This document shows, in pieces, positions 12,405-44,881 of a DNA stretch of 52,603 nt. Position numbers and translations under genes: made by a program. A model generated the notes under the pieces. It ran no database searches and was not told where the DNA came from. It worked only from the letters and a program-made list of their open reading frames with translations. Origin of the DNA: Fibrobacter sp. Its GTDB lineage: Bacteria; Fibrobacterota; Fibrobacteria; Fibrobacterales; Fibrobacteraceae. The DNA lies in contig JAKSIJ010000018.1 in assembly GCA_024398875.1 (NCBI GenBank), forward strand, positions 1 to 52,603. Reading direction: 5' to 3'. The first letter of the stretch is position 1; each line of letters opens with the position of its first letter.

Positions 12405-12415
12405 AATAGAGCCGT

Positions 12416-12446
12416 TCAACGCGCGACATCTCGTGCGTTGATTTTT
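12416..12446 (+). terminator. Rho-independent terminator after guaA
   Basis: An 11-bp stem (TCAACGCGCGA pairing with TCGTGCGTTGA, one G-T pair) with a CATC loop, followed by five T. It ends only 6 bases before the ATG of the next gene, so it may also act as a leader hairpin or attenuator. Confidence 0.85.
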
Positions 12447-12452
12447 CACCTC

Positions 12453-13952
12453 ATGAAAAAATTACTTCTTTACCTGATTACACTTTTCTGCATAGTATCG
12501 CTATGCAGCTGCAGCGAATCTCGTGAAGAAACCGCAATTCAATCAAAACAAGACCTTCCGGGCAAACAAGTTGGTGTCATCACAGGAACATTCCACGACC
12601 AGTTGGTTCTGGATAGCATTGGCCAGGTAGAACTCAGTTATTTTCAAAGCGTCACAGAAATCGTTCTGGCCCTTCAGAAAGAAAAAATTAATGCAGCCAT
12701 CTTTGAACTCATCAACGCCACTCGCTTTACAAAAAAATACACAGACATAAAAATCCTTGAAAAGATTCTTCCCACAGTTCCGCAAGCCATCGGCTTAAAG
12801 AAAGGGAGCCCCCTAAAGGCTGAACTCGACCCAATCATCGAGCAAATGTTCAACCAAGGTTTCTATGCCAAACTGGTTGAGAAATGGATTTCAAATGAAG
12901 AATCTGAAATGCCAAAGCAGGACTGGGAAGGTAAAAACGGCACGCTTGTCGTGGGCACCACTGGCGCCATGCCGCCCACTAACTTCTATCTCAACAACGA
13001 GTTGGCTGGGGCTGATATTGAACTCGTTTTCGCCATCGGGAAGGCTCTGGATAAAAAAATTGAATTCGTCGCCATGGACTTCAACGCCCTCATGCCAGCA
13101 CTTCAGACCGGAAAAATTGACATGTGCATTGCAGGCATCGTCATTACCGAGGAACGCAGCCAGATTATCGACTTTACACATCCCTATTTTGAAAGCGCCA
13201 TCATCGCCATGGTCAAAAAAGAGCCTTCGAACGCAAAAGCAGCCAAATCCTCATTTTTTGGCGAGCTGAAAGCCAGCTTTCATCGAACCTTCATCATTGA
13301 AAGCCGCTGGAAAATGATTCTGGACGGCCTCGGCGTCACCCTCATCCTCTCCATTCTTTCGGGCATTTTCGGCATCCTCCTCGGCTTCATCATCTGTCTG
13401 TTCCGGCGGAGCAAACTTAAAATTTCCTCCATAACCAGCGCCGTTTTTATCCGCATCATTCAAGGGATGCCGATTCTCGTACTTCTCATGATTCTTTACT
13501 ATGTCATTTTCGTCCACTCCAACATCAGCGGAATCGTCGTCGCCATCATCGGATTTTCCATCAACTTCGGCGTTTATGCCTCCGAAATCATGCGAAGTGG
13601 CATGGATGCTGTAGACAAAGGGCAATTAGAAGCCGCTGCAGCCCTTGGCTACAACCGCAGGCAATCATTCTTCAAGATACTTCTCCCTCAGGCCGCAAAC
13701 CATTTCATTCCCGTCCTCAAGGGGGAATTCATCAGCATGGTGAAAATGACCTCCGTCGTGGGCTACATTGCTGTTGTGGACCTCACCAAAGTTTCTGACA
13801 TCATTCGCTCCCGCACCATGGAAGCCTTTTTCCCACTCATTGCGACTGCAATTCTCTACTTCATTATCGCACTGTTACTCACCCGCATTCTTGTTTTGAT
13901 AGAAAAAAAGACGGACCCCAAACAACGCCACAGAAAAATCAAGGGGGTCTGA
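12453..13952 (+). CDS. ABC importer lipoprotein: permuted substrate-binding domain fused to permease
   Basis: A 499-residue protein. A lipoprotein signal ends in LCSC. Residues about 35-145 resemble lobe II of a polar amino acid receptor (GKQVGVITGTFHDQLV, ending LVEKWIS); about 155-260 resemble lobe I (GTLVVGTTGAMPPTNF, the carboxylate-binding Arg in VITEERSQIIDF). This is the reverse of the lobe order in ordinary SBP_bac_3 receptors such as the one encoded at 44102-44881. A HisM/GlnP-type permease follows (about 270-495), with the EAAAALGYNRRQSFFKI coupling loop. The lobe II Asp that binds the amino group is Glu here (AAIFEL). The stop overlaps the next ATG by one base, so the genes are coupled. 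The ATG at 12453 is chosen over a TTG at 12438 to start the signal peptide. No Shine-Dalgarno sequence is seen, and the guaA terminator ends 6 bases before. Confidence 0.85.
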   Translation: MKKLLLYLITLFCIVSLCSCSESREETAIQSKQDLPGKQVGVITGTFHDQLVLDSIGQVELSYFQSVTEIVLALQKEKINAAIFELINATRFTKKYTDIKILEKILPTVPQAIGLKKGSPLKAELDPIIEQMFNQGFYAKLVEKWISNEESEMPKQDWEGKNGTLVVGTTGAMPPTNFYLNNELAGADIELVFAIGKALDKKIEFVAMDFNALMPALQTGKIDMCIAGIVITEERSQIIDFTHPYFESAIIAMVKKEPSNAKAAKSSFFGELKASFHRTFIIESRWKMILDGLGVTLILSILSGIFGILLGFIICLFRRSKLKISSITSAVFIRIIQGMPILVLLMILYYVIFVHSNISGIVVAIIGFSINFGVYASEIMRSGMDAVDKGQLEAAAALGYNRRQSFFKILLPQAANHFIPVLKGEFISMVKMTSVVGYIAVVDLTKVSDIIRSRTMEAFFPLIATAILYFIIALLLTRILVLIEKKTDPKQRHRKIKGV

Positions 13953-16165
13953 TGAAATATACACAAACACTTCTGGCTATTGGTGCCATCCTCTCATTTT
14001 TCTGCGGATGCAGTCAAAACAAAACAGACAACTATCAGACATTCGCTGATTTGGAAGGGAAGAGTATCGCAATTAGAACAGGGACCGTATATGACCAAAC
14101 GGTTCTAGGTGTTGTAAAAAATCCAAAATTCAAATACATGAACACAAATGCAGATATGTTTCAAGCCCTTGATGCGGGAAACATAGATGCTATTGGGCTA
14201 GATTTATCCATTGCAAAGCCATATCTCAAAATATATCCGCAAACTCGTCCCCTGGACGAGCGCATCAATCAGGATGCCTACGGGATCGCCTTCCCAAAGA
14301 ACAGCCCTTACAAGGCAGGCATTGACTCCGTTATTCAAACTTTGCGTGAATCAGGAGAACTTCAGCAGATTATTGAAAAATGGGAAAATGAAACGGAGGA
14401 TACAAAAAGCGAGGATCCTGTTAATTCAGATTTAGATGAAGTCCTCCGTGTTGCAGTAGAAGGTTCTAACCCTCCCTTTGATTTTTTCAAAAACAATAAA
14501 CTTGCAGGAATCAACATCGACATCATCAATGCCATTGGGACGGCTCTCCATAAAAACGTGGAAATTACCGTCATGGATTTTCCAGGGTTTATGCCATCGC
14601 TAGGTTCCAACAAGATGGACATGTGCATGTCTAGCATCAGCATTACGGAAGAACGGAAGAAAATCATTGACTTTTCCATTCCCTACTACTACAATGAAAA
14701 TGTCATCATCGTTTTAGACAAATCAAACGGAAACAAATTTCAGCAATACACCACATTTAAGGATCTTGAAGGCAAAAAAATCGGGGTCTCCACGGGTTCT
14801 ATTTACGACAAACTAGCTTCTGAACGCATCAAGGCCGCAGAAATAAAATATTTCACAACCTATACCGACATTTTTAACGCCCTCAAATCACGGAAAGTGG
14901 ATGCCATCAGTATTGATAAATCCGTTGTTTATCACTGGATGCGAAATTTTCCTGATGTAAAGATTTTAGACGAAAAGCTCAGCAAAGATTATTTTGGCAT
15001 AGCAATAAAAAAAGGAAATCCCATAAAAGCAACAATAGACTCCTTGATTCAAATTCTAAAGGATAATGGAGAACTAGCGCAAATTATTGACAAATGGAAC
15101 CATGAGAAAGAAGACGATTATTGCATTCCTCAAGACTGGGAAGGAAAAAACGGAACATTGAATATTGCGACAGAAGGAATCAACCCTCCTTTTGACTTCT
15201 TCAAAGGAAACCAGTTAGCCGGAATCAACATAGACCTAATGCTTCGATTGGGAAAAATGCTGGACAAGAAAATCGTCTTTAAAACATACGAATTCACTAC
15301 ACTAATTCCTTCCATCGCTTCAGGGAAGGTCGATTTGGGAATATCTGGAATCAGCATTACCGAAGAGAGACAAAAACTCGTTGATTTTTCCATCCCGTAC
15401 TATGAAAATGAAGGCATTGTCGTCGTTCGTGACGAATCGGCCATTTCAGAGACGAAAGCATCATTTTTCGCAGACCTTAAAGAAAGTTTCCACCGCACAT
15501 TCCTGCAGGAAAGTCGCTGGAAAATGGTCTGCAACGGGCTCGGCATTACCATCATTATTTCCATCTTCTCCGGAATTTTCGGCACACTCCTCGGCTTCAT
15601 CATCTGTTTCTTCCGCCGCAGTAAAAATAAGGTGTCTTCCATCTCTAGCGCAATTTTCATCAGAACCATCCAGGGAATGCCAGTCCTCGTACTCCTCATG
15701 ATTCTCTACTACATCGTCTTTGGACATTCAAGTCTGAATGGGATTGTCGTTGCTGTCATCGGATTTGGCATAAACTTCGGCGTCTACGCCTCCGAAATCA
15801 TGCGAAGCGGCATGGATGCCGTAGAAAAGGGGCAGCTGGAAGCCGCAGCAGCCCTCGGCTACAACCGCAGGCAAACCTTCTTCAAGATTCTCCTCCCCCA
15901 GGCCGCAAACCACTTCATTCCCGTCCTCAAGGGGGAATTCATCAGCATGGTGAAAATGACATCCATCGTGGGCTATATCGCCGTCATGGACCTCACCAAA
16001 GTCACCGACATCATCCGTTCCCGTACCATGGAAGCCTTTTTCCCACTCATTGCGACAGCCATTCTCTACTTCATCATCGCAAATATTTTAACTTACATTT
16101 TGACCCTCGTGGAAAAGAAAACCGATCCGAAGCATAGAGAGCGCAAAGTGAAAGGAGTCAACTGA
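13952..16165 (+). CDS. ABC importer lipoprotein: two permuted receptor units fused to permease
   Basis: A 737-residue paralogue of the preceding protein with a doubled receptor. A lipoprotein signal ends FFCGC. The order is lobe II (about 30-148, GKSIAIRTGTVYDQTV), lobe I (150-250, VAVEGSNPPFDFF, ISITEERKKIIDF), lobe II (255-385, GKKIGVSTGSIYDKLA, AISIDKS with the amino-binding Asp), lobe I (390-495, IATEGINPPFDFF, ISITEERQKLVDF), then a permease (505-735). The permease is nearly identical to that of the upstream gene (EIMRSGMDAVEKGQLEAAAALGYNRRQTFFKI), so the two may form a heterodimeric channel. The central lobe I and lobe II could also pair as a conventional receptor. Ligand is probably a polar amino acid. 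It is followed by its ATPase after one base. Confidence 0.85.
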   Translation: MKYTQTLLAIGAILSFFCGCSQNKTDNYQTFADLEGKSIAIRTGTVYDQTVLGVVKNPKFKYMNTNADMFQALDAGNIDAIGLDLSIAKPYLKIYPQTRPLDERINQDAYGIAFPKNSPYKAGIDSVIQTLRESGELQQIIEKWENETEDTKSEDPVNSDLDEVLRVAVEGSNPPFDFFKNNKLAGINIDIINAIGTALHKNVEITVMDFPGFMPSLGSNKMDMCMSSISITEERKKIIDFSIPYYYNENVIIVLDKSNGNKFQQYTTFKDLEGKKIGVSTGSIYDKLASERIKAAEIKYFTTYTDIFNALKSRKVDAISIDKSVVYHWMRNFPDVKILDEKLSKDYFGIAIKKGNPIKATIDSLIQILKDNGELAQIIDKWNHEKEDDYCIPQDWEGKNGTLNIATEGINPPFDFFKGNQLAGINIDLMLRLGKMLDKKIVFKTYEFTTLIPSIASGKVDLGISGISITEERQKLVDFSIPYYENEGIVVVRDESAISETKASFFADLKESFHRTFLQESRWKMVCNGLGITIIISIFSGIFGTLLGFIICFFRRSKNKVSSISSAIFIRTIQGMPVLVLLMILYYIVFGHSSLNGIVVAVIGFGINFGVYASEIMRSGMDAVEKGQLEAAAALGYNRRQTFFKILLPQAANHFIPVLKGEFISMVKMTSIVGYIAVMDLTKVTDIIRSRTMEAFFPLIATAILYFIIANILTYILTLVEKKTDPKHRERKVKGVN

Positions 16166-16166
16166 C

Positions 16167-17252
16167 ATGATTACCGTCCGCCATTTGAGCAAGGTCTACC
16201 CCAACGCTACTCCGTTGAAAGACATCAATGCCGAAATAAAAAAAGGCGAAGTAATTTCTATTATCGGTCCCTCCGGCACCGGCAAGTCTACGTTCCTGCG
16301 GTGTTTGAACCGACTTGAAACGCCTACTTCCGGCGAAATCATCATCGATGGAGTCAACATTCTCGATAAGAAGACGGACATTTCGAAAATTCGTCAGAAA
16401 ATGGGAATGGTGTTCCAGTCCTTCAATCTCTTTGCCCACAAGATGATTGTGGAAAACATCATGATGGGCCCGATGGATTTACTCCACATGTCTAAGCAGG
16501 AAGCCTACGACGAGGCCATCCGGCTTTTAGATATGGTGGGTTTGAAGGACAAGGCTCTGAACTATCCTGACGAACTCTCCGGTGGACAGAAGCAGCGCGT
16601 AGCCATTGCCCGCGCCCTCGCCATGAAGCCCGAAATTCTTCTGTTTGATGAGCCTACCTCCGCACTTGACCCCACCATGGTTTCCGAGGTGCTGAGCGTC
16701 ATTTCTGGTCTTGCCAAACAAGGCATGACCATGATGATTGTCACTCACGAAATGCGTTTCGCCCGCGATGTGTCCACTCGGATTTTCTACATGGACCAGG
16801 GGCTCATCTATGAAGATGGTACGCCGGAACAAATTTTTGGAAATCCTCAAAAAGACTTGACCCGCACCTTCATCTACCGCATCCGCAATTGGAATTACGA
16901 AATTCACAGCAAGACTTTCGACTTCCTCGGCATGATGTCCGAAATCGAGAAATTTGCCACAAGACAATTCCTGAACAGAAAGCAACTCAACGCCATCCAG
17001 ATGGTCATTGAAGAAATCGTCATGAACAAGATGTTCCCCGTTGTGGAGGATGGCAAGGATCCCGACATTCATCTGGAACTTTCCGCCAGCGAAGAAGGCT
17101 CGGAAATCAACCTTCACCTTCAATACAAGGGCGTTCCCAAAGGGAAAATTCACATTGGCGATGATATTTCCGATGCCCTACTCACAAAGTTCGTGGAAGT
17201 CCAAAAGCACGATAGCGAAGCACGCCTTATCGAGCTGAAAATTCTTGTCTAA
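16167..17252 (+). CDS. Polar amino acid ABC transporter ATPase with extra C-terminal domain
   Basis: A 361-residue protein. Residues 1-240 are a complete GlnQ/HisP-type ATPase: Walker A GPSGTGKST, Q-loop MVFQSFNLF, signature LSGGQKQRVAIARAL, Walker B ILLFDEPTSALDP and switch THE. It starts two bases after the permease-receptor gene, with AAAGGAG upstream, and should energise that importer. Residues about 245-361 are not part of GlnQ. They include NAIQMVIEEIVMNKM, which resembles the N-box helix of RsbW/HATPase_c_2 anti-sigma kinases, followed by strand-rich sequence (IHLELSASEEGSEINLHL). The usual Asp-x-Gly box appears as QYKG, so ATP binding by this module would be degenerate. It could be a regulatory domain, as NIL domains are in MetN. 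The RsbW resemblance is inference from pattern. Confidence 0.9.
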   Translation: MITVRHLSKVYPNATPLKDINAEIKKGEVISIIGPSGTGKSTFLRCLNRLETPTSGEIIIDGVNILDKKTDISKIRQKMGMVFQSFNLFAHKMIVENIMMGPMDLLHMSKQEAYDEAIRLLDMVGLKDKALNYPDELSGGQKQRVAIARALAMKPEILLFDEPTSALDPTMVSEVLSVISGLAKQGMTMMIVTHEMRFARDVSTRIFYMDQGLIYEDGTPEQIFGNPQKDLTRTFIYRIRNWNYEIHSKTFDFLGMMSEIEKFATRQFLNRKQLNAIQMVIEEIVMNKMFPVVEDGKDPDIHLELSASEEGSEINLHLQYKGVPKGKIHIGDDISDALLTKFVEVQKHDSEARLIELKILV

Positions 17253-44101: not shown

Positions 44102-44881
44102 TTATTTTCCAAACCACTTGGCATGAATTTCATCAAACTTGCCATCTGCCTTCATAGCGGCAAGAGCGCTATCCACGGCATCGTGGAGTTTCTGGTCGCC
44201 CTTGCGGAAGCCAATAGCGTATTCTTCGTCGCTCAGGCCTTCTTCGAGCACAACATAGTCCTTGGCATTCTGGACAATCCAGTACTTGGCCACGATTTCA
44301 TCCAGGAACACGGCGTCCACGCCACCCTTTTCAAGGTCCATGAGAGCGGTCTGATTGTCGTCAAAGGGAACGATTTCCTTCGCGGCCTGGCCTGCAGCAG
44401 ATGCATCCAAAAGCTTCTGGGCTGTGGAGCCATTCTGCACGGCAATCTTCTTGCCGGCAAGAGAAGCGAGACTAGCGAGAGCCTTGTCCTTCACCGTGAA
44501 AATCATGCGGTTCTTGAGGTAGGGCGTGCTCAAATTCATGGCAGCAGCACGTTCCGGGTCCACAGAAAGGCCATTCCAGATGCAGTCAATCTTACCGGTA
44601 TTGAGTTCCTGTTCCTTGGCATCCCAGGAGATGGGCTGGGTCTTGAGGGTCACACCTAGACGGGCACAAACTTCGGTAGCCAAATCAATATCGAAACCCA
44701 CAATGTTGTTGTCCTTGTCACGGAAGCCCATGGGCGGGAAAGAGTCATCCAAGCCCAGCACAAAGACGCCAGCGCTCTTCACCTTGTCTAAAGAGGCGTC
44801 ACCTTGAGCCTTCTGTTCCTGTTTTTCATTGCAACCAGCCAAAAGGGCCACCATTGCAAGACATGCCAATAACTTCTTCAT
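44102..44881 (-). CDS. Amino acid ABC transporter substrate-binding lipoprotein
   Basis: A 259-residue SBP_bac_3 receptor with a lipoprotein signal (MKKLLACLAMVALLAGC) and an AAGGAGT Shine-Dalgarno. The lobes are in the usual order: lobe I first (VLGLDDSFPPMGF, DIDLATEVCARLG, with the ligand-carboxylate Arg in VDPERAAAMN), then lobe II (GKKIAVQNGSTAQKLL, VDAVFLDE with the amino-binding Asp) and a C-terminal IHAKWFGK. It delivers a polar amino acid to the permease encoded next. It provides an in-window reference for the permuted receptors at 12453-16165. Confidence 0.95.
   Translation of the reverse strand: MKKLLACLAMVALLAGCNEKQEQKAQGDASLDKVKSAGVFVLGLDDSFPPMGFRDKDNNIVGFDIDLATEVCARLGVTLKTQPISWDAKEQELNTGKIDCIWNGLSVDPERAAAMNLSTPYLKNRMIFTVKDKALASLASLAGKKIAVQNGSTAQKLLDASAAGQAAKEIVPFDDNQTALMDLEKGGVDAVFLDEIVAKYWIVQNAKDYVVLEEGLSDEEYAIGFRKGDQKLHDAVDSALAAMKADGKFDEIHAKWFGK

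Follow-up and report, generated by a model that had tools for sequence, protein, structure and literature searches.

The window, that is the whole stretch of 52,603 nucleotides that was analysed, carries two consecutive forward-strand genes, here called P1 (12453..13952, 499 aa) and P2 (13952..16165, 737 aa), followed in the same operon by a forward-strand ATPase gene (16167..17252) whose residues 1-236 form a GlnQ-like NBD. The P1 stop and the P2 start overlap in TGATG, a single base separates the P2 stop from the ATPase start, and both the P1 and the P2 reading frames are intact. Each protein begins with a lipoprotein-type signal, for which the lipobox-like LCSC of P1 can be seen in the sequence. 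At the other end of each chain lies a permease domain, on the forward strand at 13305..13910 in P1 and 15515..16120 in P2. Both are recognised by Pfam and by HMM, that of P1 as BPD_transp_1, and the two share 84% identity; Pfam and NCBIfam assign them to the PAAT permeases, and structure comparison of the P1 domain with 4yms gives a Z score of 20.8.

The open frame of P1 starts at 12405, immediately 3' of the guaA stop, which, with both frames intact, rules out a missed upstream half-receptor of the N type described below, or a frameshift. Between guaA and P1, at 12416-12441, lies a terminator-like hairpin of 11 pairs with a T-run. The P1 start follows it by about 12 bases, without room for a promoter, and the hairpin may therefore reflect read-through or attenuation. 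We considered the adjacency of guaA as a clue to substrate and dropped it: guaA is not beside the transporter in ten related loci, and in the window itself the hairpin separates it from the operon.

The order of the receptor halves was assessed with separate HMMs for the N- and C-terminal halves of SBP_bac_3 (PF00497), denoted N and C, iterated from a few canonical and local sequences. In P1 they place C at residues 33-145 (12549..12887, E 2e-31) and N at 164-255 (12942..13217), the latter ending in hinge strand 246-255 of the structural model, ahead of the permease at 285-486. In P2 the corresponding order is C1 at 32-144 (14045..14383, E 2e-35), N1 at 164-254 (14441..14713, E 5e-34), C2 at 270-382 (14759..15097, E 2e-37), N2 at 402-493 (15155..15430, E 7e-33) and permease at 522-723, all on the forward strand. 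E-values per half span 1e-31 to 1e-37. The same HMMs, and Pfam, were applied to an in-genome control, the reverse-strand receptor at 44102..44881, which reads canonically as N(42-134)-C(143-259) of its open frame. Pairwise scores among all eight halves separate cleanly, at 71-267 for C against C, 82-267 for N against N and no more than 27 for C against N. Pfam matches P1 at SBP_bac_3 profile positions 1-96 only, that is the N half, over residues 165-260 and adjoining BPD_transp_1.

These results bear out the sequence-only reading, which had proposed that lobe II precedes lobe I directly after the lipid anchor in both proteins, giving II-I-permease in P1 and II-I-II-I-permease in P2, and that the receptor at 44102-44881 is of the normal I-II kind. 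Its coordinates and order were correct, and alignment puts a C half, rather than a complete I-II receptor, at the N-terminus of P1 and P2 alike. The label 'lobe II' stands as a description of the C-terminal half of the chain but is incomplete: this half also contains the final helices, and these pack back on lobe I. The cut therefore falls immediately behind the chain's first crossing of the hinge, not precisely between the lobes. Both kinds of half match the polar amino-acid receptor family by sequence, and the family trait of N followed by C within one receptor is absent from the P1 and P2 units. Judged by their sequences, these receptors are a permuted derivative of SBP_bac_3, and none is a canonical member. 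The central proposal of circularly permuted receptor lobes, arrayed and fused to permeases, is thus supported.

The arrangement is not unique to P1 and P2. Relatives were collected from 40 other genomes and from at least 80 loci of one scan of 84,980 species genomes, the scope of the scan being relatives of P1-type permeases. With T denoting the permease, the permuted proteins in the scan comprise at least 19 C-N, at least 18 C-N-T, at least 12 C-N-C-N-T, at least three (C-N)3-T and at least one (C-N)4-T, alongside canonical proteins numbering at least 27 N-C, at least one N-C-T and at least three N-C-N-C-T. The forms seen among relatives range from the single free C-N lipoprotein, through C-N with a separate permease and (C-N)1-4-permease, to (C-N)n-permease-ATPase. 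Four ORFs of the first form, of about 275 to 305 aa, come from the window's own, Fibrobacter-like genus (L047 twice, L048 and L050), and L041-L044 encode free (C-N)2 proteins, about 570 aa long and lacking a permease. All clear arrays have C first and N last, which identifies the C-N unit as the module; the sole odd reading among the matches listed is C-N-C in L131, made of partial matches in an incomplete-looking ORF. The source records name Fibrobacterota, Bacillota, Spirochaetota, Pseudomonadota, Thermodesulfobacteriota, Chlorobiota and Bacteroidota among the matches listed, many of them metagenome bins, so that single phylum assignments may be wrong. The permuted form of this well-known receptor is real and widespread, and has so far gone without a name.

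Some individual architectures deserve mention. On the receptor tree the P2 units have their nearest relative in the second unit of the L041-L044 proteins. A gammaproteobacterial bin encodes a 1246 aa chain with four permuted receptors followed by one permease (L082, 3438-7175). Chains of 900-1160 aa in L060, L061, L062, L063, L064, L071 and L083 join receptor(s), permease, ATPase and an HATPase_c_2-like domain, and are whole importer halves in one protein. In the window's genus, a 981 aa protein (L040, 1142-4084) has the order permease-C-N-ATPase, with the receptor between permease and ATPase, a puzzling topology across the membrane.

Which halves pair was addressed through structure prediction, linker lengths and covariation. 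The AlphaFold model of P1 has a mean pLDDT of 88, mostly above 90 in the receptor, and its hinge keeps two long strands (108-116 and 246-255), of which the latter exits towards the permease. That of P2 is weaker (pLDDT 79, pTM 0.40, 17 aligned sequences). In both models the lobes pair within C-N units, each unit being predicted as one two-lobed receptor. The best PDB receptor match over a whole C-N unit is the glycine-betaine receptor OpuAC (PDB 2b4l), on which the complete C-N region of the P1 model superposes with Z 13.8 over 214 residues at 4.5 Å, and unit 2 of the P2 model with Z 14.0 over 208 residues at 4.3 Å. Canonical amino-acid receptors fit the C-N models over about 170 residues at Z 11; we read such fits as exchanging the lobes through internal pseudo-symmetry.

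The partner of a half is not fixed by lobe order alone, and the C-N units might accordingly be domain-swapped dimers in which P1 and P2, or two copies of one protein, exchange lobes; a helix-swapped dimer of the receptor TmArgBP has been described, as quoted in PMC8276074. We regard such swapping as very unlikely, however, given that the C-to-N linker within a unit is nearly constant at about 20 residues (17-23 in 73 of 74 units, 29 in the other; median 20), that the monomeric P1 model closes well, and that the number of units per transporter is both odd and even.

A second arrangement, not weighed in the sequence-only reading, would place a canonical receptor, N1-C2, in the middle of P2 and leave the outer halves, C1 and N2, to pair with each other over a distance or with those of P1. 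Pfam does join residues 165-383 into one SBP_bac_3 match, formally a canonical stretch. Against this, the N-to-C spacing between units varies from 12 to 38 residues and never takes the value 8, whereas nearly all canonical N-C hinges are of 8 (the commonest) or 12 residues. Evolutionary distances tell the same story: in 22 two-unit proteins the distances of C halves correlate with those of N from the same unit at r 0.887, compared with 0.761 for the other N, and none of 2000 random within-protein swaps reached as high a value. When canonical receptors are positioned by sequence over N1-C2 in the P2 model, the superposition is no better than about 15 Å, so that N1 and C2 are not paired in that model. 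Finally, P1, the C-N-T proteins generally and the free C-N proteins contain no N-C pair at all. The arrangement is largely ruled out, and we would give it hardly any weight.

Pairing within each C-N unit is therefore the favoured one of the two mechanisms offered by the sequence-only reading. Four results speak against its alternative, in which neighbouring units, or the two proteins, would share lobes: the free C-N lipoproteins, the near-fixed C-N linker, the same-unit covariation, and the P2 model, which fits permuted OpuAC but does not fit canonical receptors across N1-C2. L017, L019 and L022, all from the window's genus, have two almost identical C-N units (distance 0.00-0.04), the whole module having been duplicated recently.

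The residues of the ligand site are well kept. Arg and Thr, located in the N half, are present in 69 and 65 of 72 permuted units, respectively, and Gly and Asp/Glu, located in the C half, in 65 and 60. It is scarcely credible that the first C half and last N half are degenerate leftovers without ligand binding, for although the C half of P1 has Glu where Asp is usual and some units elsewhere have lost the motifs, the site Arg, Thr and Gly are each retained in at least 90% of the 72 units and there are whole permease-ATPase sets that have retained a single C-N unit as their sole receptor.

Natural permutation of solute-binding proteins and the fusion of tandem receptors to permeases are both already known. 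OpuAC was recognised by structural search as a circular permutant of ProX and the molybdate receptors (PMC2395249). As a natural permutation within the type II receptors it parallels P1 and P2, and by sequential structure alignment it has the same lobe order as their models, but it belongs to a different sequence family and is not arrayed before a PAAT permease; among Pfam matches up to E 0.01, which were to SBP_bac_3 and related families only, the OpuAC family was absent. TpMglB-2 (Tp0684) is likewise a natural circular permutant, proposed as a type Ic or cluster Bc receptor (PMC4990184). It resembles P1 and P2 in being a lipid-anchored permuted receptor that occurs in spirochetes and gut bacteria, but it is a type I sugar receptor of an unrelated family with another cut site, and no type I sugar-receptor family appeared among the Pfam or NCBIfam matches of P1 and P2. 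Also close, in layout, is GlnPQ of Lactococcus lactis (PMC8025302), which shares with P1 and P2 the similar sequence family, the one or two polar amino-acid receptors N-terminal to a PAAT permease, and the separate ATPase. Its receptors are whole and run N-C, as had been remarked earlier; those of P1 and P2 run C-N, so that anchor and permease attach elsewhere on the receptor.

A C-N profile matched 485 PDB sequences, and the best 60 of these included no solved permuted polar amino-acid receptor; the GlnPQ tandem 6h30 alone aligned C then N, and did so across two canonical domains. A literature search that took in few subscription journals gave OpuAC and TpMglB-2 as the only permuted cases and no paper describing permutation in polar amino-acid receptors, or arrays of permuted receptors fused to permeases. 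Permutation in this family may be new to the literature.

In ionotropic glutamate receptors, including GluR0, the N half of the same domain family leads from the hinge straight into the membrane domain, and in the channels the C half comes after that domain, whereas in P1 and P2 it comes before the N half. The N halves of P1 and P2 also match Pfam Lig_chan-Glu_bd.

The ATPase of the operon carries a marker of the P1/P2 permuted family in the form of an extra C-terminal domain (16878..17249, forward strand), a degenerate HATPase_c_2-like domain of about 120 aa. Among the matches listed it was present in 32 ATPases of this family and in none of 38 clear others, comprising 25 canonical ATPases and 13 from a second, mostly clostridial, C-N family; the ATPase of L079 is cut by the contig end. 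Further examples lie at 8010-8387 of L060 and 7950-8330 of L063. Twelve of the 32 members match HATPase_c_2, with a best E of 2e-4 and motif positions mostly degenerate, and a PDB profile search gave no match below E 0.78. It is possibly a regulatory domain.

The origin of the permutation was examined through a receptor tree in which N and C were joined in one order for all sequences. The permuted units are spread over more than one group, and an AU test rejects a single clade of all C-N receptors (p 0.00016), also when L111 is left out (p 0.004). One clade is accepted (p 0.79) once the mostly clostridial group, chosen after seeing the tree, is omitted as well, so that the family containing P1 and P2 passes as one clade. 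Two independent markers concur: in the permease tree, 42 C-N rows including P1 and P2 form one group (SH-aLRT 98) apart from all canonical rows and from the second C-N group, and the extra ATPase domain is confined to the first family. Together with the AU tests these indicate at least two natural permutations, and the rearrangement seems to have arisen independently twice or more. The permuted receptor at 7311-8114 of L111, from a Lachnospiraceae bin, has canonical receptors as its nearest neighbours on the tree and may be a third, independent permutation. As to route, permutation by duplication, with loss of the first N and last C from a GlnPQ-like tandem (N-C-N-C-permease), is plausible in view of linker lengths, the C-N linker being similar in length to the between-unit linkers of canonical tandems, which are 16, 16 and 24 residues in only three cases.

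Overall, we consider it highly probable that P1, P2 and the ATPase constitute a type-I polar amino-acid ABC importer with circularly permuted SBP_bac_3 receptors built of C-N units. P1 and P2 would be the two permease subunits, their chains beginning with one and two receptor domains, respectively, and the presence of two permease chains with one ATPase gene suggests a heterodimer bearing three receptors. Each receptor chain would start in lobe II, pass over the hinge back to lobe I and form the C-terminal helices there; the linker of about 20 residues would then lead to the old N-terminus, lobe I would be completed, and the chain would run out towards the permease along the remaining hinge strand. 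The two halves of a unit would close round the ligand, with its carboxylate bound by conserved Thr and Arg in the N half and the amino acid held from the opposite side by Gly-Thr/Ser and Asp/Glu in the C half. The retained binding residues, the PAAT permease and the GlnQ-like ATPase make import of polar amino acids likely. The units themselves multiply as whole C-N modules.

From the fold, a cut at the hinge would shift both tethers, so that lipid anchor and permease attach at lobe II and the hinge as opposed to lobe I in GlnPQ. The receptors of GlnPQ act independently and its transport depends on linker length (PMC8025302), and tether position could by analogy matter for transport by P1 and P2 too. 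A more ambitious scenario, in which two or more independent hinge permutations were selected because the tether shift alters receptor closing or docking, and in one family act together with an extra HATPase_c_2-like ATPase domain that regulates transport, is one we hold only tentatively and think rather doubtful.

A cut at the hinge is tolerated by the best-studied superfamily of bacterial uptake receptors, and has evolved there repeatedly. Automatic annotation hides the permutation, because Pfam and NCBIfam label each half without regard to the order in which the halves stand; for such proteins, any receptor count, prediction of specificity or biosensor design that presupposes N-C order will be in error. 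The same cut site joins receptor to membrane domain in ionotropic glutamate receptors, which gives the comparison evolutionary interest. The permuted importers offer natural systems in which to test how tether position affects closing and docking of the receptor, and the ATPase domain linked to them suggests that amino-acid importers have a regulatory branch not studied so far.
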